NCBI RefSeq assembly: GCF_014640175.1
Contig: NZ_BMGL01000006.1
Coordinates: 62,001-126,000, forward strand
Source of the DNA: Psychroflexus salis
Lineage (GTDB): Bacteria > Bacteroidota > Bacteroidia > Flavobacteriales > Flavobacteriaceae
DNA: 64,000 nucleotides
Reading direction: 5' to 3'
The notes under the pieces were generated by a model, which was not told where the DNA came from, did no database searches, and worked only from the letters and a program-made list of their open reading frames with translations. Positions 24,303 to 33,601 of this stretch are shown one piece after another (the stretch's first letter is position 1; the number at the start of each line of letters is the position of its first letter). The position numbers and the translations under genes are program-made.

Positions 24303-24323
24303 AAGTACTCGGAGCGGGACTTG
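24303..24323. repeat. Left att core (duplicate of the tRNA-Leu 3' end)
   Basis: All 21 bases match 30506-30526. Beyond it the element continues TAACCCC, while the tRNA continues AACCCGC, so this copy cannot make a tRNA. The core covers the discriminator, the acceptor 3' strand and part of the T arm. Confidence 0.92.
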
Positions 24324-24454
24324 TAACCCCCTATTTATTTAAACTATTTTAAACCCCTAAACAAAAGCTTAACCCTTATAAACACTAGAAATCCTTAATA
24401 AATACAAGGCTTACCAAAGTTTTAAAATAATTTAATGAAATTTAATTTAATAGA

Positions 24455-24500
24455 ATAGTTTAGTACAATTTTAGTACAACTTTGCTATTTTTGTACTAAA
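24455..24500. promoter_or_regulatory. Putative integrase arm sites overlapping the integrase promoter
   Basis: TTTAGTACAA occurs at 24459-24468 and 24470-24479, and inverted at 24491-24500. The first and third copies form a dyad with 11-base arms (GTTTAGTACAA/TTGTACTAAAC). The -7 box TATTTTTG (24486-24493) overlaps the inverted copy. Nearly the same 27-base block is present near the right end (30438-30464). By analogy with lambda-type integrases, these are likely arm-binding sites that would also let the integrase repress its own gene. Confidence 0.65.
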
Positions 24501-24521
24501 CAATTAAAAAAAGGTAGAAAT

Positions 24522-25859
24522 ATGGCACGTATTAACTTCTTATATCGTTCTAAAAAAGACAATGCAAATTTGAAAGTAAGGCTACAAGCAAAAGAAAAAA
24601 GCCAGAATAAATATTTTCAACTTGAAGCCAGTACAGAAATTCACACAACAAAGGAATTTTTTACAACTACTAGAAATAAAAAACGTGGCTTAACTGCAAA
24701 TGAAAAAAATGAGATTACAGACTTCTACAATAAAATTGAACCAATAGAAAAATTTATTTTAGAACAATACGAAAATGATTATCCAAAGCCAGACCAAAAA
24801 GACTGGTTAAAAAATGTAATGTTTGATTACTACAATCCTATTGAACTGGAAGAAAAAAGAAGCGACATATTAACTGATAATATTCAGTTGATAATAGATA
24901 CAGCGAATACAAGAGAAAACGCACAAAAGCAGCTAGGAATATCAAAAAGCCGTATCAATTCATATAAAAACCTATTGAATATTATAAACAAGTATCAAAG
25001 TTTCAAAACCGATAAGCGAAAGTTTAGAATAAAAGATGTTAACCAAAGTTTTGCACGTAATTTTTTAAACTGGATGATTAACGACCAAAGTTATGCAGAC
25101 AGCTACGCACTCAAAAAAGTAGATGATTTAAAGACGGTTTGTAAAGATGCTGAAATTGATAATGTAGAAGTTAGCAGCCAACTAGAGAAAATAAAAGGCG
25201 GCAAAGTGGATAATGAAAATATAATCTATTTAAGCCCTGATGAACTGGATAAAATCGAAAGTTTAGAGCTAAATAGCGAAGCATTAGAAAACGCTCGCAA
25301 ATGGTTAATTTTAGGTTGCTCAATCGGTCAACGTGGTGGCGACTTGCTAAACCTTACAGAAAACAATATAAATAACATCAACGGCTTAGAAGTTATACAG
25401 CTAAAGCAGCAAAAAACAAAAGCAAATGTTACCATTCCAGTATTAGAAAAAACAGCCGAAATATTAGAAAATGGATTTCCACGTAAAATAAGTATTCAGA
25501 AGTTTAACGACTATATTAAAAAACTTTGTGAATTAGCTGAACTGGACGAACCAACAAAAGGACGTAAATACGATAAAACAAAAAAGCGTAGAATATTAGG
25601 CACTTATCCAAAACACGATTTAGTGAGCTCGCATATTTGCCGCCGTTCATTTGCGACTAATTTATACGGAGTTATGCCAACTACATTAATAATGAAAATA
25701 ACAGCGCATAAAACCGAAAAAATGCTACTTCAATACATTGGTAAAAGTGATTTAGATTACGCTCAACAAATTGCAGATTTCTACGAATTACAGCGAATGA
25801 AAAACCAAAAAGAAAGCGTTTTAAAAGTAGTTGACAACAAAGAAGCCGTTAACCAATAA
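24522..25859 (+). CDS. Tyrosine recombinase (integrase) of the element
   Basis: The 445-residue protein catalyses site-specific insertion and excision of the element. The N-terminal part (1-110) is arm-binding-like, residues 120-220 form a SAM-like core-binding domain, and 235-425 is the catalytic domain. Catalytic residues are visible: Arg271 in GQRGGDLL, His371-x-x-Arg374 in SHICRRSF, His396 in TAHKTEKM and the nucleophile Tyr405 in LLQYIG. The usual GH box is AH here. It has the layout of Bacteroidota integrases of the phage-integrase-SAM-like class. It is the first gene from the left att core and reads inward. Confidence 0.93.
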   Translation: MARINFLYRSKKDNANLKVRLQAKEKSQNKYFQLEASTEIHTTKEFFTTTRNKKRGLTANEKNEITDFYNKIEPIEKFILEQYENDYPKPDQKDWLKNVMFDYYNPIELEEKRSDILTDNIQLIIDTANTRENAQKQLGISKSRINSYKNLLNIINKYQSFKTDKRKFRIKDVNQSFARNFLNWMINDQSYADSYALKKVDDLKTVCKDAEIDNVEVSSQLEKIKGGKVDNENIIYLSPDELDKIESLELNSEALENARKWLILGCSIGQRGGDLLNLTENNINNINGLEVIQLKQQKTKANVTIPVLEKTAEILENGFPRKISIQKFNDYIKKLCELAELDEPTKGRKYDKTKKRRILGTYPKHDLVSSHICRRSFATNLYGVMPTTLIMKITAHKTEKMLLQYIGKSDLDYAQQIADFYELQRMKNQKESVLKVVDNKEAVNQ

Positions 25860-25863
25860 TTTT

Positions 25864-26670
25864 ATGAAAATGGAAACCAAAAAAGAGAATACAGCAAATA
25901 GAAACGAATTAGCAGCACTTGAAAAACAAATGAGAGTTAACAACGCTGAAAATATAATCAATCAAAGAAAGGATTTTGAAGCCTATTTTAGTGGCTTATA
26001 TGATAGTTTGAACACTCAATATAATAGCGAGAAAAACCACGCTAAAAGCGGCAAAATTAAGATGCTAGAAAGATTTATTAATGAAATAAACGAAGCTTTA
26101 TATAAGTACAAAAACAACTCTAATGTTAACGTAAATAATGAAGATTATAAAATCGAAGCTTTACAAAGTCTTAGAAATAATTTCGAGAAGCATTTAACTG
26201 ATTTACATACACCAGATAAAACTCAATCTAAAGGCAGCAATAAGCAGAAACCAAAACAGCTTAAAGACTTTTTAATTAACGCTAATAAATTTAATGACAA
26301 AGAAGTTGAAAAAATTGAAAACTCATTAATAAAGCACTTTCAAAAGCCAATTATAAAGGCATATTCAAAGGGTAAAAAATTTAGCAAACAGCCGTTTAAT
26401 TTACTTATTCTTAAATTACAAAACAACTATATTGACACAACAAAGCATAACAAAAGCGATGTTGTCAAATACTTTAAAAAGTTGTTTTTTGGTACTGAAT
26501 GGGAACAAAATATTGACAAAGATACAAGAGCTTATACCAAAGCTAAAAATGAATACAAATCCCAAAAAGAACTATCTAAAAGAGCAAAAAGTATTTATAA
26601 TGATGTTATTGAGCCAAATTTTGAAGCGTTTAAAAGTGATATGATGTTTCTAAATCCAAAGTTTAAATAA
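25864..26670 (+). CDS. Unknown protein encoded after the integrase
   Basis: The start ATG at 25864 (MKMETKKENT), 4 bases after the integrase stop, is preferred over an in-frame TTG at 25831 that overlaps the integrase gene. The 268-residue protein is soluble, very rich in Lys, Asn and Glu, and mostly predicted helical. A Lys/Gln-rich linker (KGSNKQKPKQLKDF, ~125-140) separates two halves. No domain or catalytic motif was recognised. It probably shares a transcript with the integrase, so a role in integration, excision or regulation is possible but unproven. Confidence 0.65.
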   Translation: MKMETKKENTANRNELAALEKQMRVNNAENIINQRKDFEAYFSGLYDSLNTQYNSEKNHAKSGKIKMLERFINEINEALYKYKNNSNVNVNNEDYKIEALQSLRNNFEKHLTDLHTPDKTQSKGSNKQKPKQLKDFLINANKFNDKEVEKIENSLIKHFQKPIIKAYSKGKKFSKQPFNLLILKLQNNYIDTTKHNKSDVVKYFKKLFFGTEWEQNIDKDTRAYTKAKNEYKSQKELSKRAKSIYNDVIEPNFEAFKSDMMFLNPKFK

Positions 26671-26687
26671 TGGTTACTAAAAAAAAG

Positions 26688-26714
26688 ATAGTTACATTGT
26701 AACTATGTAACTAT
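26688..26714. promoter_or_regulatory. GTTACA/TGTAAC operator-like repeats before the HTH gene
   Basis: ATAGTTACA (26688-26696) and TGTAACTAT (26706-26714) are inverted repeats. A third half-site TGTAAC lies between them at 26698-26703. They stand 41 bases upstream of the -7 box at 26755 and could bind the HTH protein encoded next or a helper-phage regulator. Confidence 0.6.
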
Positions 26715-26754
26715 AAAACATTTAAAATCAATTAATTAGATTTAATATAGCTTA

Positions 26755-26762
26755 TAAGTTTG
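26755..26762 (+). promoter_or_regulatory. -7 box for the HTH and helicase genes
   Basis: TAAGTTTG matches TAnnTTTG, 30 bases before the ATG at 26793. It should drive the HTH and helicase genes together. Confidence 0.55.
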
Positions 26763-26792
26763 CACTATGATTTAATTTAAAATTATAGTGTT

Positions 26793-27059
26793 ATGAACTT
26801 AGAAATTCAAATTCCTGAAAGCCTTACAAACGATATTAAGGCACTCAAAGAGAAGCTCGCAAATATTGAGCTTAACTTACAGCCAAAACAAGCACCGCAA
26901 TACTACACACGCAAAGAAGTGGCTAAAATGTTTAATGTGGATTTATCTACTATTCACAACTGGACTGTAAAAGGAGTACTCACAGCCTATCAAATTGGCG
27001 GCAGAGTTTTATACAAAGCCAACGATATAGAAAACGCTATTGTAGAACTGAAAAAATAA
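26793..27059 (+). CDS. Excisionase/AlpA-like helix-turn-helix protein
   Basis: The 88-residue protein has a short helical N-terminus (1-35), then a winged HTH of the MerR/excisionase type at 38-85: YYTRKEVAKMFNVDLSTIHN followed by WTVKGVLTAYQIGGRVLYKA. Proteins of this form act as excisionases or as AlpA-like regulators in integrative elements and satellites. The gene has its own promoter with operator-like repeats and ends 5 bases before the helicase gene. Confidence 0.82.
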   Translation: MNLEIQIPESLTNDIKALKEKLANIELNLQPKQAPQYYTRKEVAKMFNVDLSTIHNWTVKGVLTAYQIGGRVLYKANDIENAIVELKK

Positions 27060-27064
27060 AGGCA

Positions 27065-28591
27065 ATGGATAACACAATTACCCAATGCCTTGAAAGCTTT
27101 TTATTCTCAAACAACAAAAGCAAAGATAAACAATTATCAAAGATTATAAATTGCTATTCAGTAGGCGACAAAGGCAGAGTTATTTTGAATACTCTAATGG
27201 TAGCAAACTATTTAAGCGAACTAGGTTTTTATCAACAAAAAGTAGGAGACAAAATTTTGTTTTCACTTTATTACAATGGAGTTTTAACTACAAACATTTC
27301 CAGAGACCATATTTACAGCTATCTAATGAAGCTTATAATTAAGTATGACCCGAACGCTAAAAATAAAGATAGTCAAGTATTAAACAAGCTAAATATTGAG
27401 CTTAATAAGCATATCAAAAAAGAAACAACCATAGTAAGTAATTTAGATGTTTGTATGCTTAAAGAGTATCGAGATACTAAAAATACAACAAGGTTTTTCT
27501 TTAAAAATTTGATAGTTGTAGTTGAGGTTAAAAATGATATGAAAAATATCAAAACTGAAAATTACAACGAATTTGCAAAGCGTAAAAAGTATATTAATTC
27601 TAGTAAAATAATTGATTTTGATTACGACCCAAAAAACCCACAACCTGAAAAATCGGTTTACGCTGAATTTGTCCGTAAGGTAACTAATGAATCTAAGCAT
27701 TATTTATCCGTTGTAACTTCAATAGGTTTTTTCTTAAACTCATTTAAGAGCAAAAAAGACCCTGTTATATTTATCCTATCGGACGAAAATTCACAGCTTA
27801 AAAATGATGCATACGGACAAAGCGGAAAAAGCGAGATTTTAGAAGCTGGACTTCAATTTGCAGTAAGCTCATATTTCTTTGAAAATGCGCAAAACTTCAA
27901 TAAAAACTTTCCATTTCAAAATATAAGACCTGAACACGATTTATTCATTTTTGGAGATGCACCTAAAGACTTCAATCTAAAAATAATGTATGAAGCTAAG
28001 CGAGGTATTGATGTGGAACAAAAAGGACGCTCAAAAGCAGACTTTTTTATTCAATTTGAATACAGCCCTAAAATTTTGGTAGATACCAATTTCAGACTAG
28101 GCAGCAATAAATCAAGCGACAAAGGGCGAATTTTCAGAATTACAATTAATAACTACTTTGATGCAGACTACACGCCAATAGAAGAGTTTAAACACGAATT
28201 ATTCACGGACTGGGATAAAACCGAATGGAATAACTTTTACAGCTTTATGATTGAATGTGCTGCAAGTTATTTAAAGTACGGACTTGTTAAATATTCAAAT
28301 CCAAAAATCGAAAGCAAAATTTTAGCAACCTCAACTTCAAGTAAATTTGTGGAATATATGAGTAATTCTTTTGAATTAGATAAGTGGTATGTATTACCCT
28401 ATTTAGCTAAAGAGATAATTGAAAAAACATACAAAGAAAGCCCTGTTAAAGCTTCAAAGGTTCTATTAAATTGGCTGCAACAATATGCAGATGACAAAGG
28501 CTTGAATTTGACAAAAAGAAAAGGAGCGCAAAATAAAAAATCTATTAAAATTAGTAAAATCAACTTGTTTACAAATCGAGAAAATCAATAA
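27065..28591 (+). CDS. P-loop helicase-like replication protein
   Basis: The 508-residue protein has a P-loop A-Y-G-Q-S-G-K-S (249-256), a Walker B-like strand LFIFGD ending in Asp298, and a later Lys/Arg-rich strand KGRIFRITINNYFDAD (~350) with a possible arginine finger. This order resembles superfamily 3/AAA+ replication helicases and primase-helicases of plasmids, phages and satellites. The N-terminal 240 residues show no primase zinc finger or catalytic triad that I can identify. The C-terminus (440-508) is basic (LTKRKGAQNKKSIK) and may bind DNA. The iteron-like array that follows directly suggests it initiates replication there. Family assignment is moderate. Confidence 0.65.
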   Translation: MDNTITQCLESFLFSNNKSKDKQLSKIINCYSVGDKGRVILNTLMVANYLSELGFYQQKVGDKILFSLYYNGVLTTNISRDHIYSYLMKLIIKYDPNAKNKDSQVLNKLNIELNKHIKKETTIVSNLDVCMLKEYRDTKNTTRFFFKNLIVVVEVKNDMKNIKTENYNEFAKRKKYINSSKIIDFDYDPKNPQPEKSVYAEFVRKVTNESKHYLSVVTSIGFFLNSFKSKKDPVIFILSDENSQLKNDAYGQSGKSEILEAGLQFAVSSYFFENAQNFNKNFPFQNIRPEHDLFIFGDAPKDFNLKIMYEAKRGIDVEQKGRSKADFFIQFEYSPKILVDTNFRLGSNKSSDKGRIFRITINNYFDADYTPIEEFKHELFTDWDKTEWNNFYSFMIECAASYLKYGLVKYSNPKIESKILATSTSSKFVEYMSNSFELDKWYVLPYLAKEIIEKTYKESPVKASKVLLNWLQQYADDKGLNLTKRKGAQNKKSIKISKINLFTNRENQ

Positions 28592-28624
28592 AAATGACTG
28601 ATATAACCATTTTCATAAATGCAC

Positions 28625-28902
28625 CCTAACTTATTAATATGCTGAATATCATACACTTATTTTTTTAAGGTTAGGTTAAGAAAACACAACCTAACTGTTT
28701 AAGATATTGATATTCAGTTAATTAAATCCAATAGTTAGGTTAGTTAGGTTATTTTAAAACATACGTGTATAGAAAAAAAGTAATTCATATATATATAATA
28801 ACTTCATTTTATCCTAACTATCCTAACAAAACAGCGTAAAGCATAGTAAAATTAAGGGTTTACAAGGTTAGGTTTAAAAATCAATCCTAACCTAAACCTA
28901 AC
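28625..28902. repeat. Iteron-like GTTAGG array, candidate replication origin
   Basis: Ten copies of GTTAGG (either strand) occur at 28625, 28670, 28690, 28734, 28743, 28813, 28822, 28867, 28886 and 28897. The inner copies form two tandem GTTAGGWTA units on the left (28734-28751) and two inverted on the right (28810-28827). They flank an AT-rich core of about 60 bases. The pairs at 28670/28690 and 28867/28886 share the same centre (~28781). A further dyad CTGAATATC/GATATTCAG lies at 28642-28650 and 28709-28717. The region has no gene. An origin or multi-site operator fits best. Confidence 0.7.
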
Positions 28903-28970
28903 TAAATAACAAATATTAACAAGGGCAGCAAATGAGAAACTTTTAATATGCCGCCAAAAATCAAATAAAT

Positions 28971-29684
28971 ATGAATTTATCAATTTTCAAAACAAAAAAG
29001 GAATTACAAATACAATCCGACCAACAAGGGTATGATGTTTTAGTTAAATCGGTTAACGCACCCATTGAATGTATAAAGGATGCTAGAGATGAATTTAAGC
29101 GCAATAAAATTGAGATTAAAACCTTAGAGGAATTAAGCAAAGGCAATTTTATTGAAATACTTAACCAATATGTAGATGCTGAATATAAAAAATCTACAAC
29201 GGTTAAAGATTTAAAATTAAGTCCAGAAGATTTTAAGGAACGTAGAAAAATTGAAACTTCAAAGCTCGAGAGTTTGCAAAGCATATATAATAATCTAATC
29301 AATAGAAATGAGCAGTTATATGATTTCAATGATGGATTTTTTAAGCATTGCGAGAATGCATACCATAGCAAAGACCCATATAAGCAAAAGATATTCAAAA
29401 AAGCACCAAAGAAGCGAGATTATCGTATTGGCGATATGTTTACCATTACTGGCAATAAAGTGAAGCTAGACATACCTAAAAAGCCGTTTGAGATGTATTT
29501 ATTGAATAATGAGCAAAAGGAGTTAATCGTATCAATTAATAAATTTATCGAAGCATCAAAGGAATTAGAATTTGAGCCGAAATTTATTTATGATGCAGTT
29601 AAGAAATACTTAGCAAGTGATACTGGATACCTGCTAAACAATGTTGTTTTCAATTACAACGAAATTCTAACCCATAAACTATAA
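28971..29684 (+). CDS. Unknown protein of the integrative element
   Basis: The 237-residue soluble protein is helical and highly charged. Residues 60-115 look like a coiled coil (LKLSPEDFKERRKIETSKLE). The second half has the segments KAPKKRDYRIGDMFTITGN and KPFEMYLLNNEQKELIVSINK. No family or catalytic motif was recognised. It follows the iteron-like array and precedes the 48-codon frame by 2 bases. It may be an accessory or helper-interference protein, but nothing in the sequence proves this. Confidence 0.6.
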   Translation: MNLSIFKTKKELQIQSDQQGYDVLVKSVNAPIECIKDARDEFKRNKIEIKTLEELSKGNFIEILNQYVDAEYKKSTTVKDLKLSPEDFKERRKIETSKLESLQSIYNNLINRNEQLYDFNDGFFKHCENAYHSKDPYKQKIFKKAPKKRDYRIGDMFTITGNKVKLDIPKKPFEMYLLNNEQKELIVSINKFIEASKELEFEPKFIYDAVKKYLASDTGYLLNNVVFNYNEILTHKL

Positions 29685-29686
29685 TT

Positions 29687-29833
29687 ATGAATGAAGTAAA
29701 AATTTTACGTTTCACCAGTTCTGAAAAACTGGAAACCGAAATAAACGCACTACTCAAAACTGGGTACAAACTGGATACTAACTTTAAAATCGAAAACGAT
29801 GGAACACAATTTTATGCATTAATGTTTAAGTAA
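29687..29833 (+). CDS. Possible 48-residue protein at the end of the element operon
   Basis: An ATG 2 bases after the previous stop opens a frame MNEVKILRFTSSEKLETEIN to YALMFK, 48 residues. The close spacing, the good codon pattern and the terminator about 45 bases later support it as a real gene. It is small and acidic/basic mixed, with an alternating beta-alpha-beta-like pattern. No function recognised. Confidence 0.5.
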   Translation: MNEVKILRFTSSEKLETEINALLKTGYKLDTNFKIENDGTQFYALMFK

Positions 29834-29876
29834 TTGGCACGTCATACCTTACTTAGATTTTGATTAATTGAGAGAG

Positions 29877-29901
29877 ACCCGCTTTAATAGGCGGGTTTTT
29901 T
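29877..29901 (+). terminator. Terminator of the element's plus-strand operon
   Basis: ACCCGC (29877-29882) and GCGGGT (29891-29896) form a GC-rich stem with an 8-base loop, followed by a T-run. It closes the transcript that runs from the integrase end. Confidence 0.88.
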
Positions 29902-30437
29902 GATTTTACAGCCAACGGAGTTAAGGCGAAGCAGCACCAGAACCACAGCAAATAAAATTTAATTCCAGTATCTTAATTCAGTTGTAACATTTTATAGCAT
30001 AACACTAGCAAACTAGGCAGCATATAGAGAAATTTCTACATAAAACCCTTATTTCTTTGAAAAACAAGTATATAAGTAACAAAAAATATAACAGGTCTCA
30101 AATCAATGCAGAATGCCTATAAAATGCAGAGCGTAAAATATTGCTTCACATAGGGGGAACTTTCTTAAAACTTAGCTTTTTTTTATTACCACAGCATCAC
30201 AGCCAACGCCTTAACAGCTTACAACAAACGAATGATAAAGTTATAAGCAAAAACATTTGAGCGCATTAGAACGCTTTGTTTGAAGTCAAAGAAATAAGCT
30301 AAGATTATGCGAGATTAAAAGCTATTCAGATAAACAGCTATTGAATTTTATTAGCTTCACCAGATGCAGCCTTAGAACTGATTAAGAGCTAAGAAACAAA
30401 CCAATTTAACAAAAGACTAATTTATATTTATTCTCAA
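29902..30437. other. Gene-free right part of the element
   Basis: No credible gene is seen in this ~540-base stretch. ACAGCCAACG occurs at 29908-29917 and 30199-30208. GTTAAGGCG (29920-29928) is inverted as CGCCTTAAC after the second copy (about 30207-30215). It could be part of the attP region, carry packaging or regulatory sites, or be decayed sequence. Confidence 0.5.
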
Positions 30438-30464
30438 TAGTTTAGTACAAATATAGTACAACTA
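30438..30464. promoter_or_regulatory. Right-end copy of the putative integrase arm sites
   Basis: The block ATAGTTTAGTACAA...TAGTACAACT differs from 24455-24481 at two of 27 bases and has the same orientation. In the circular form the two blocks would flank the att core at about 45 and 130 bases. Confidence 0.65.
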
Positions 30465-30465
30465 A

Positions 30466-30502
30466 ATAAAAAACCCTTGCTAACTAACTGATTAACAAGG
30501 GT
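30466..30502 (-). terminator. Replacement terminator supplied by the element to the tRNA operon
   Basis: On the minus strand ACCCTTG (30502-30496) and CAAGGGT (30479-30473) form a stem, followed by TTTTTTATTT. It lies 3 bases beyond the att core and would end the tRNA-Leu transcript in place of the chromosomal terminator now at 24260-24301. Confidence 0.8.
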
Positions 30503-30505
30503 CTT

Positions 30506-30526
30506 AAGTACTCGGAGCGGGACTTG
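30506..30526. repeat. Right att core, within tRNA-Leu
   Basis: The 21 bases equal 24303-24323. They cover the 3' end of the intact tRNA-Leu and 3 bases beyond it. Strand exchange must have occurred within them. Confidence 0.92.
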
Positions 30527-30593
30527 AACCCGCACGGCCATAATGGCCATTGGATTTTAAGTCCAACGTGTCTACCAATTCCACCATCCGAGC
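30509..30593 (-). tRNA. tRNA-Leu(UAA)
   Basis: The 85-base gene folds with acceptor 5' GCTCGGA against 3' TCCGAGT (last pair G-U), a long variable arm (TGGCC..GGCC) typical of tRNA-Leu, and T arm GCGGGTTCAAGTCCCGC. The anticodon loop CTTAAAA gives UAA. CCA is not encoded. Its 3' end serves as the attachment site of the element. It is transcribed with tRNA-Gly. Confidence 0.95.
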
Positions 30594-30607
30594 AGAATAT
30601 TTTTTTG

Positions 30608-30679
30608 AGCGAAAGACGGGATTTGAACCCGCGACCCTCACCTTGGCAAGGTGATGCTCTACCCCTGAGCTACTTTCGC
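30608..30679 (-). tRNA. tRNA-Gly(GCC)
   Basis: The 72-base gene has acceptor GCGAAAG/CTTTCGC, D arm AGCTCAGGGGTAGAGC, anticodon stem TCACC/GGTGA with loop TTGCCAA (anticodon GCC), and a T arm GCGGGTTTGAATCCCGT. CCA is not encoded. It is 14 bases upstream of tRNA-Leu in the same transcript. Confidence 0.95.
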
Positions 30680-30712
30680 GTTTTATTTGACTTAAGCAAT
30701 AAAAAATCTTAA

Positions 30713-30830
30713 GGCAAGGTGATGCTCTACTTCCGTAACAATCAAAAGTTTTTTTTGCTCTGTTACGAAAATTCTCGGCAAAATACGAAATCTACTATTT
30801 CTTTTTGACGGAACCCTGAGCTACTTTCGC
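30713..30830 (-). pseudogene. Broken tRNA-Gly 5' part split by an 83-base insert
   Basis: 30814-30830 repeats the first 17 bases of tRNA-Gly, and 30713-30730 repeats the next 18 bases, down to the anticodon. Between them lies an 83-base insert (30731-30813) that starts TTCCGT and ends ACGGAA, a 6-base terminal inverted repeat. The 3' half of the tRNA is absent; the copy ends exactly at the anticodon. It cannot make a tRNA. It may be a recombination scar. Confidence 0.8.
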
Positions 30831-30859: not shown

Positions 30860-30888
30860 CAAATTTAATCTTTTTATTCAATTCACAA
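30860..30888 (-). promoter_or_regulatory. Promoter of the tRNA operon
   Basis: On the minus strand TAAATTTG (30867-30860) is a perfect -7 box, with TTG (30888-30886) 18 bases upstream. The transcript would start near 30853 and include the broken tRNA-Gly piece, tRNA-Gly and tRNA-Leu. Confidence 0.7.
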
Positions 30889-30948
30889 ACTATTTTCTAT
30901 AGAAAAGAATGGAAATTTTTAAGTTTTATATTTCTAAAAAATAACTAA

Positions 30949-32716: not shown

Positions 32717-32805
32717 ACCCCTAACGGGGTTGAATTACTTTACCATGCTTTTGTTAATGATATTTCGCCCCTAATGGGGCTATTGTTATTTCGCTCCTAC
32801 AGAGC
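32717..32805. repeat. REP-like hairpins upstream of the RAYT gene
   Basis: Three short dyads occur: ACCCCTAACGGGGT (32717-32730), GCCCCTAATGGGGC (32767-32780) and GCTCCTACAGAGC (32793-32805). The last two are 26 bases apart, the same period as the downstream array. Read on the minus strand they have the same GTTA-like loop pattern, so they face the downstream set. Confidence 0.75.
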
Positions 32806-32892
32806 TTAATATTATTTTTTTCTATCTTTATTTTTTGAATTTTAATATGTTGTTTTGCAATTGATTAACTAGCTTTTATTTAAAGATAAATT

Positions 32893-33354
32893 ATGGCTAA
32901 TACATTTACACAAGTCTATATACAAATCGTAGTTACTGTTAAGGGTAGACAAAATCTAATTCATAAAAAATGGAAAGATGAACTATATAAATACATATGT
33001 GGTATTGTCAATGCTAAGCAACAAAAAGTTTATGCTATTGGTGGAGTTGCTGATCATATACATATCTTGGTGAGTATAAAACCAAATATTTCAATTTCAG
33101 AGCTGGTAAGGAGCATAAAGGCAAATTCATCTAAATGGATCAATGAAAAAGGATTGGTTTTAGGGAAATTTCAATGGCAAGGTGGTTTTGGAGCTTTTTC
33201 ATATGCACAATCTCAGTTAGATACTGTAATTAAGTATATCAATAACCAAGAAAAACATCACAAAGTGAAAACCTTCAAAGATGAATATACTGAATTTTTA
33301 GAAAAATTTGAAATTGATTATGATGAAAAATATTTATTTAAATTCATTGAATAA
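32893..33354 (+). CDS. REP-associated tyrosine transposase (RAYT, IS200/IS605 Y1 family)
   Basis: The 153-residue protein is a single-strand DNA transposase of the HUH class. The HUH motif is ADHIHILV (His55, His57), and the probable catalytic tyrosine is Tyr115 in VIKYINNQEKHH. Other family parts are FTQVYIQIVVTVKGRQNLI and KFQWQGGFGAFSYAQSQLD. Flanking REP hairpins on both sides mark it as a domesticated RAYT and not a mobile IS200. It looks intact. RAYTs cut at REP sequences and may spread or maintain them. Confidence 0.88.
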   Translation: MANTFTQVYIQIVVTVKGRQNLIHKKWKDELYKYICGIVNAKQQKVYAIGGVADHIHILVSIKPNISISELVRSIKANSSKWINEKGLVLGKFQWQGGFGAFSYAQSQLDTVIKYINNQEKHHKVKTFKDEYTEFLEKFEIDYDEKYLFKFIE

Positions 33355-33364
33355 ATACAATTAA

Positions 33365-33484
33365 TAGCTCCGTTAGGAGCGATATAATATTAGCTCCGTT
33401 AGGAGCGATATAATATTAGCTCCGTCAGGAGCAACATCACAATAGCTCCGTCAGGAGCAACATCACAATAGCTCCGTCAGGAGC
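33365..33484. repeat. REP array of five hairpins, exact 26-base period
   Basis: Units GCTCCGTYAGGAGC start at 33367, 33393, 33419, 33445 and 33471. Each is a 14-base hairpin plus a 12-base spacer. Units 1-2 have loop GTTA and spacer GATATAATATTA; units 3-5 have loop GTCA, with spacer AACATCACAATA after 3 and 4. Two rounds of local duplication explain the pattern. The array begins 11 bases after the RAYT stop. Confidence 0.92.
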
Positions 33485-33601
33485 GACATAATTTCAGGAA
33501 ACAATAAAATTCAACAGTTTATAAAGAAATCCCTTTTTTTTTCGCAAAGTCCGCAAAGGATTCGCTAAGAACACGAAGAAAATTCTTTAATTAAAATTAG
33601 A

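Follow-up and report, generated by a model that had tools for sequence, protein, structure and literature searches.

A split partial copy of tRNA-Gly in a Psychroflexus salis tRNA-operon leader and recurrent partial tRNA copies with loop palindromes in its genus

Described systems closest to the locus

Integration-derived tRNA copies usually consist of the 3′ part of the gene. Repeats of a tRNA end have a further counterpart in Escherichia coli, where the 178-bp tyrT repeats (rtT RNA), tandem units repeating the tRNA end behind the gene, resemble arrays in three genomes of the genus studied here: G009, G011 and G000, the genome of the window (the whole stretch of DNA analyzed, 64,000 nucleotides of Psychroflexus salis). 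In contrast to the tyrT repeats, upstream 5′ parts are also present here, and loops are replaced by palindromes. The att copies of phages and ICEs, as described in PMC9897764, are alike in being incomplete tRNA copies near a complete gene and identical to it. The copy reported here differs from them in that it is a 5′ half, lacks an element, lies beside the promoter and is split by a hairpin insert.

REP elements and the systems of REP-associated tyrosine transposases share short palindromes with the present case, according to PMC3733652. They differ from it in distribution, as all 16 palindromes of the tested form in G009 lie by tRNA genes, and part or none of them do so in other genomes. An IS200-type transposase gene is found 2 kb from the partial copy of the window. 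Its product stays below the cut-off for REP-associated tyrosine transposases (28.6, cut-off 80) and passes that for IS200 (69.9, cut-off 55). This Y1 transposase gene (32893-33354) stands beside hairpin repeats (window 32755-33497), which form a 26-bp tandem array of AGCTCCGTCAGGAGC-like units at 33362-33492 with an inverted counterpart at 32755-32815.

Mitochondrial double-hairpin elements are also of the mobile hairpin kind. Among mitochondrial mobile hairpins, the RHE of sponges are alike in being small, in consisting of one or two hairpins and in lying between genes, apart from one copy in an rRNA gene (rnl) (PMC2800124), and the mobile DNA family of yeast mitochondria likewise comprises small hairpin elements (PMC4478555). 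The present case differs from them in its bacterial chromosome, its extra tRNA copies and its fixed loop positions. Each of the three components, partial tRNA genes, repeats of tRNA ends and mobile palindromes, has been described before, and their combination was not found in the literature searched; among the matches listed for open-licence literature, taken by titles and the starts of abstracts, there was no description of tRNA-flanking arrays with loop palindromes.

Anatomy of the partial copy and its locus in relatives

The genome of the window is a 2.87-Mb draft in 38 contigs. Intact genes for tRNA-Gly(GCC), at 30607-30679, and tRNA-Leu(TAA), at 30508-30593, were called by both ARAGORN and Rfam and form a tandem operon on the minus strand. 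The putative promoter at 30860..30889 on the same strand (TTTG, 18 nt, TAAATTTG) matches the Bacteroidetes-type consensus. Reading the minus strand, the promoter is followed by nt 1-17 of tRNA-Gly (30830-30814, GCGAAAGTAGCTCAGGG), an 83-nt insert (30813-30731), nt 18-35 of tRNA-Gly (30730-30713, GTAGAGCATCACCTTGCC, with the anticodon GCC at its end), a 33-nt spacer (30680..30712) and the real tRNA-Gly gene. Both pieces are exact and collinear, and joined they give nt 1-35 with zero bases lost or duplicated, so the description in the earlier note of a repeated 5′ half of tRNA-Gly, lying in the leader of the tRNA operon and split in the D-loop by an insert with ends TTCCGT/ACGGAA, holds in each of these respects. 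The better of the two pieces alone reaches a score attained by 0/150 shuffles of the 500-nt upstream flank. Neither ARAGORN nor Rfam called a tRNA in the partial copy (30713-30830), reporting only the real tRNA-Gly and tRNA-Leu, and the copy lacks the complete cloverleaf of a functional tRNA gene.

The repeat was also claimed to stop exactly at the anticodon, and the spacer bears this out: 89.5% of 2,000 spacer shuffles align to the 3′ half of the tRNA at least as well as the real 33 nt, which rules out a decayed 3′ half. Furthermore, the spacer is unlike the leader, and neither the spacer nor the insert has a source within 4 kb, their scores falling within the range of 15 shuffles each.

In the same operon, the 3′ end of tRNA-Leu is the target of a 6.2-kb integrative element (window 24303-30531), bounded by att repeats AAGTACTCGGAGCGGGACTTG at 24303-24328 and 30506-30531 and with 28-nt near-repeats inside both ends (24454 and 30436). 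It encodes a tyrosine recombinase (24522-25859), an excisionase-like HTH protein (26793-27059) and three further proteins without assigned function. Elsewhere in the window, an L19-Flavobacteria ribosomal protein leader (RF03130) was noted at 1800-1827.

The insert is AT-rich and adds its 83 nt to the D-loop, between nt 17 and 18, without loss of bases. It is more structured than shuffled sequences under DNA parameters (z = -3.53, 1/200 as good) and RNA parameters (z = -2.79, 2/200), owing to the second of its two predicted hairpins (30731-30771), which 2 of 1,000 shuffles equal; the first (30772-30813) is equaled by 165 of 1,000 and is within chance. The search for other copies called for by the earlier note found that the insert occurs once in its own genome. 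In 59 relatives, the best match outside its own genome covers 29 bases (E = 4.9e-4), which we do not count as a copy, and an exact 25-mer search, which may leave out the window's own genome, gave no further one. The insert therefore lacks the many dispersed genomic copies of a REP element. Compared with five hairpins of the class described below, it scores only 8-15, and it is not a GC-rich, near-perfect palindrome of the TCCCG or TCCGCC type replacing a loop. The proposed "tiny mobile unit" is not supported for the 83-mer, as it has no second copy. For the class as a whole, a hairpin that recurs or moves is plausible, since palindromes sit in the loops of many other partial tRNA copies. The earlier note is right in that the piece, which carries a small hairpin unit, looks derived and dispensable and not like a conserved part, in agreement with the lack of a copy of the insert in 59 relatives and with the locus in G011 (see below).

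Behind the piece, the intact tRNA-Gly has a normal predicted fold, with a mean acceptor-pair probability of 0.97. The same value is predicted when the insert is removed, and shuffled inserts reach the window value in 106 of 150 cases. A role of the insert in insulating the fold of the real tRNA was rejected on these grounds, the predicted fold being equally good in its presence and absence.

The tRNA-Gly locus was compared across 24 of 27 genomes of the genus (G006 and G025 lack an exact core, and G007 was left out). The motif TAAATTTGC precedes tRNA-Gly or its pieces in all 24, and where pieces are lacking it lies 25-37 nt from the gene, except in G023, whose 113-nt leader may be a decayed piece below the survey threshold. 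In G011, the nearest relative by leader sequence only and not by a tree, the leader (...AAATTTGCACCCGCAATAAAAGTTCATATACATTAT) runs straight into the tRNA-Gly gene with no fragment, which we observed directly as an empty site. In the window, the partial copy follows a leader near-identical to that of G011 and begins where the gene of G011 begins. Since 19 of the 24 genomes have no 5′ piece, a gain in the lineage of the window is simpler than a loss in G011.

Upstream 5′ pieces of tRNA-Gly were found in 5/24 genomes (G000, G009, G012, G013 and G014) and downstream 3′ pieces in 2/24 (G019 and G026); the opposite directions, a 5′ piece downstream or a 3′ piece upstream, gave 0/24 each, with a subthreshold score of 22 for a 3′ upstream piece in G009. 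Outside the genus, 68 genomes were surveyed and not one of them passed in any of the four directions; in this set the downstream flank is absent in G029 and G030 and short in several others. Of 129 family genomes, 61 lack an exact core and were left out. Scores below the threshold outside the genus were 21 in G175 (5′ upstream), 21 in G092 (3′ downstream) and 19 in G073 (3′ upstream). An Aquimarina found by pattern search, outside the 68-genome set, has the same arrangement at tRNA-Gly, with a palindrome (TCCGCCTGAGGCGGA) replacing the anticodon arm. The 5′ pieces of the other species extend beyond the anticodon, with BLAST alignments ending at nt 41-50, and by eye the spacers between pieces and gene seem unrelated among species. 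The same split sequence in distant species, which the earlier note would have read as a sign of function, was not found: the type of structure recurs, and its sequence does not.

Partial copies and palindromes at other tRNA genes

Recurrence is not confined to tRNA-Gly. We scanned 119 tRNA loci, 30 per genome (29 usable in G011). They were taken from the tRNA matches above the cut-off, which number 34 in G000, 35 in G011, 39 in G009 and 33 in the outgroup G081. In the 89 loci of the three genus genomes, 10 upstream 5′ and 19 downstream 3′ matches were found, against 4 downstream 5′ and 5 upstream 3′ matches in the opposite directions; these counts include weak matches (score 24-25, e.g., tRNA-Ala in G000), and neighboring loci overlap. 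The outgroup gave 0 partial-copy matches in its 30 loci. Nine of the 38 matches are thus exceptions to the direction rule: four are 5′ parts that belong to almost complete units downstream of Asn, Asp and two Met genes, three are pieces between paired Lys genes that were counted for both genes, and two are pieces preceding a Met gene and an Arg gene.

In the window's own genome, tRNA-Pro(GGG) has an upstream 5′ piece followed by TCCCTATACTTCTTAG, which by eye resembles a decayed TCCCGATACTTCGGGA (locus L055, C1). Downstream 3′ pieces lie behind tRNA-Lys, tRNA-Gln and tRNA-Leu (L036, L053 and L056) as repeated 3′ ends with trailer, in which the T-loop is replaced by a hairpin of another kind, like CGAGAAGTTTATGCTGAGCTTGCCGAAGTA. 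The single-contig genome G009 has tRNA genes flanked by tandem partial copies with the D-loop, anticodon arm or T-loop replaced by palindromes. There, 8 units precede tRNA-Gly, of which 3 have TCCCGAAGTGTCGGGA in place of the D-loop and 5 do not, tRNA-Asn has 4 upstream and 2 downstream units, and tRNA-Asp has 2 downstream. The arrays behind tRNA-Met and tRNA-Leu are longer, with 10 further matches to the 3′ end of tRNA-Leu in the case of the latter. These long arrays behind tRNA-Leu and tRNA-Met (L022, L135 and L193) carry a terminator-like sequence in their units. Downstream arrays of tRNA-end repeats are shared by G000, G009 and G011.

Genomes of the genus contain 1-23 copies of the palindrome TCCCGN6CGGGA, compared with 0-2 of a reversed control. 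In genomes from outside the genus, the number ranges from 0 to 55 (control 0-5), with 55 in G048, 29 in G059 and up to 9 elsewhere, so its abundance is not peculiar to the genus. What sets G009 apart is location: all 16 occurrences are at most 835 bp away from a tRNA gene and form five clusters, and 1 kb on either side of the tRNA genes makes up 2.0% of that genome. tRNA-like flanks were detected for 14/16 palindromes in G009, 11/19 in G010, 3/15 in G013, 2/11 in G011 and 0/3 in G000, at a threshold (26) below the highest of 192 null scores (29), such that a few of the 30 positives may be due to chance. Some species therefore show a strong link between palindrome and tRNA, which was not observed in the genome of the window.

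We also placed the GC-rich palindromes with tRNA flanks on the tRNA itself. Thirty-five distinct rows (31 flanked on both sides, 4 on one side only) fall in the D-loop (7), the anticodon arm (16), the T-loop (11) and elsewhere (1), and derive from 27 combinations of genome, tRNA and arm (6, 10, 10 and 1, respectively). These counts are descriptive and not genome-wide rates, as the loci were partly picked for palindromes or pieces; the 149 palindromes analyzed include the same places from overlapping loci, and two places in G009 missed by the flank test count here as flanked by tRNA-Pro. The repetition of positions was observed directly: a left boundary at nt 12 with a right boundary at nt 19 recurs in Gly, Phe and Arg, and a boundary after the TTC of the T-loop recurs in Asp, Met, Pro, Phe, Leu and Gly. 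A tendency in orientation (GAAG in 4/4 informative D-loops, CTTC in 6/8 T-loops) involves too few cases to rely on.

Origin of the partial copies and their meaning

We consider it probable that the structure in the window is a dispensable partial copy of tRNA-Gly, with a hairpin insert in its D-loop, and one case of a process that recurs in the genus. In such a process, tRNA genes would gain extra partial copies, usually of the 5′ part if they lie in the leader and of the 3′ part if they lie in the trailer, which may begin as partial tandem duplications of the leader plus a 5′ part or of a 3′ part plus the trailer. Hairpins would enter at the loops by insertion or template switching; candidates for their uptake are a single-strand transposase (IS200/REP type) and template switching. 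In this way, palindromes would accumulate in the D-loop, anticodon arm or T-loop of the copies, which would at times expand into tandem arrays. They may be tolerated as RNase P and 3′ trimming would discard leader and trailer. The copy in the window has two features of the class, a 5′ tRNA part between promoter and gene and a structured insert in a tRNA loop, here the D-loop; its membership rests on position and anatomy, because insert and spacer match nothing else tested. Plain tandem duplication does not explain the spacer, which is unlike the leader and has no source within 4 kb, and the preferred reading leaves both the origin of the spacer and the clean stop at the anticodon unaccounted for. 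More tentatively, a family of tiny palindromes in this genus, or a DNA process that makes palindromes, may act specifically on tRNA-derived DNA and replace the loops of redundant copies, with the copy in the window as an odd product. Hairpins of ~15-21 nt would then replace the D-loop (nt 13-18), anticodon arm or T-loop in many kinds of tRNA, at positions that repeat, and the resulting units would multiply before and behind working tRNA genes.

The earlier note suggested the scar of another element. On this reading, an element with nt 1-35 of tRNA-Gly in its att site would have integrated by crossover at the anticodon, leaving the 5′ half of the host in place and giving the gene a new one; its interior would later have been lost down to the 33-nt spacer, and the 83-mer would be a separate matter. 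Tyrosine recombinases are known to cross over at anticodon loops, and the perfect 35-nt repeat ending at the anticodon, followed by a spacer foreign to the locus, is what keeps this explanation as a rival. Partial tRNA copies from element integration are also common in prokaryotes, according to PMC9897764. Of the direct repeat on both sides of formerly foreign DNA that would mark an att scar, the repeat of nt 1-35 is present, with only 33 nt of foreign-looking DNA in between. We nevertheless regard a scar as unlikely. No element was seen between promoter and tRNA-Gly in any of the 24 genus genomes, the integrative element beside the operon targets tRNA-Leu at its 3′ end, and the other 5′ pieces pass the anticodon; a crossover there is thus not supported. 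While present, such an element would also separate the gene from its promoter. The 5′ half was likewise rejected as a viral attP, as the single viral contig matching the 28-nt 5′ sequence carries the complete tRNA-Gly gene and the operon with tRNA-Leu. An assembly or chance artefact is highly improbable: the genome is indeed a draft in 38 contigs, but the partial copy lies inside a 202-kb contig, its match is beyond all 150 shuffles, and comparable structures occur in further genomes, including a single-contig one.

A functional leader, whose tRNA-like pieces would act in RNA as a folding competitor, processing signal or decoy and whose hairpins would tune or insulate, draws on the recurrence of pieces before tRNA-Gly in five genus genomes and an Aquimarina, and on stems that are kept with loops replaced at the same places. 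In addition, some leaders with pieces are predicted to disturb the real tRNA, with acceptor-pair probabilities of 0.01 in Aquimarina, 0.48 in G009, 0.57 in G013 and 0.67 in G014, against 0.94 in G012 and 0.97 in the window, where the pieces are predicted not to disturb, and 0.99 in G010, 0.91 in G011 and 0.79 in G004, whose leaders lack pieces. The Aquimarina leader (L104) with its 5′ piece is itself of note, as the acceptor stem of the real tRNA-Gly is predicted to lose out to it. This predicted disturbance in four genomes would not be expected of a harmless by-product and keeps the functional explanation alive. We still hold it to be quite unlikely, since no 5′ piece was detected in 19/24 genus genomes, G011 included, the insert has no effect on the predicted tRNA fold, and the spacers look unrelated from species to species.

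Taken by itself, the finding in the window is modest, and the class behind it is more interesting. Partial tRNA copies in prokaryotes are commonly taken as scars of elements, and here they recur without visible elements. The tendency in direction, together with palindromes at repeated loop positions, makes the origin of tRNA fragments and palindromes testable within one genus. These results advise caution in taking any tRNA fragment for an integration scar.
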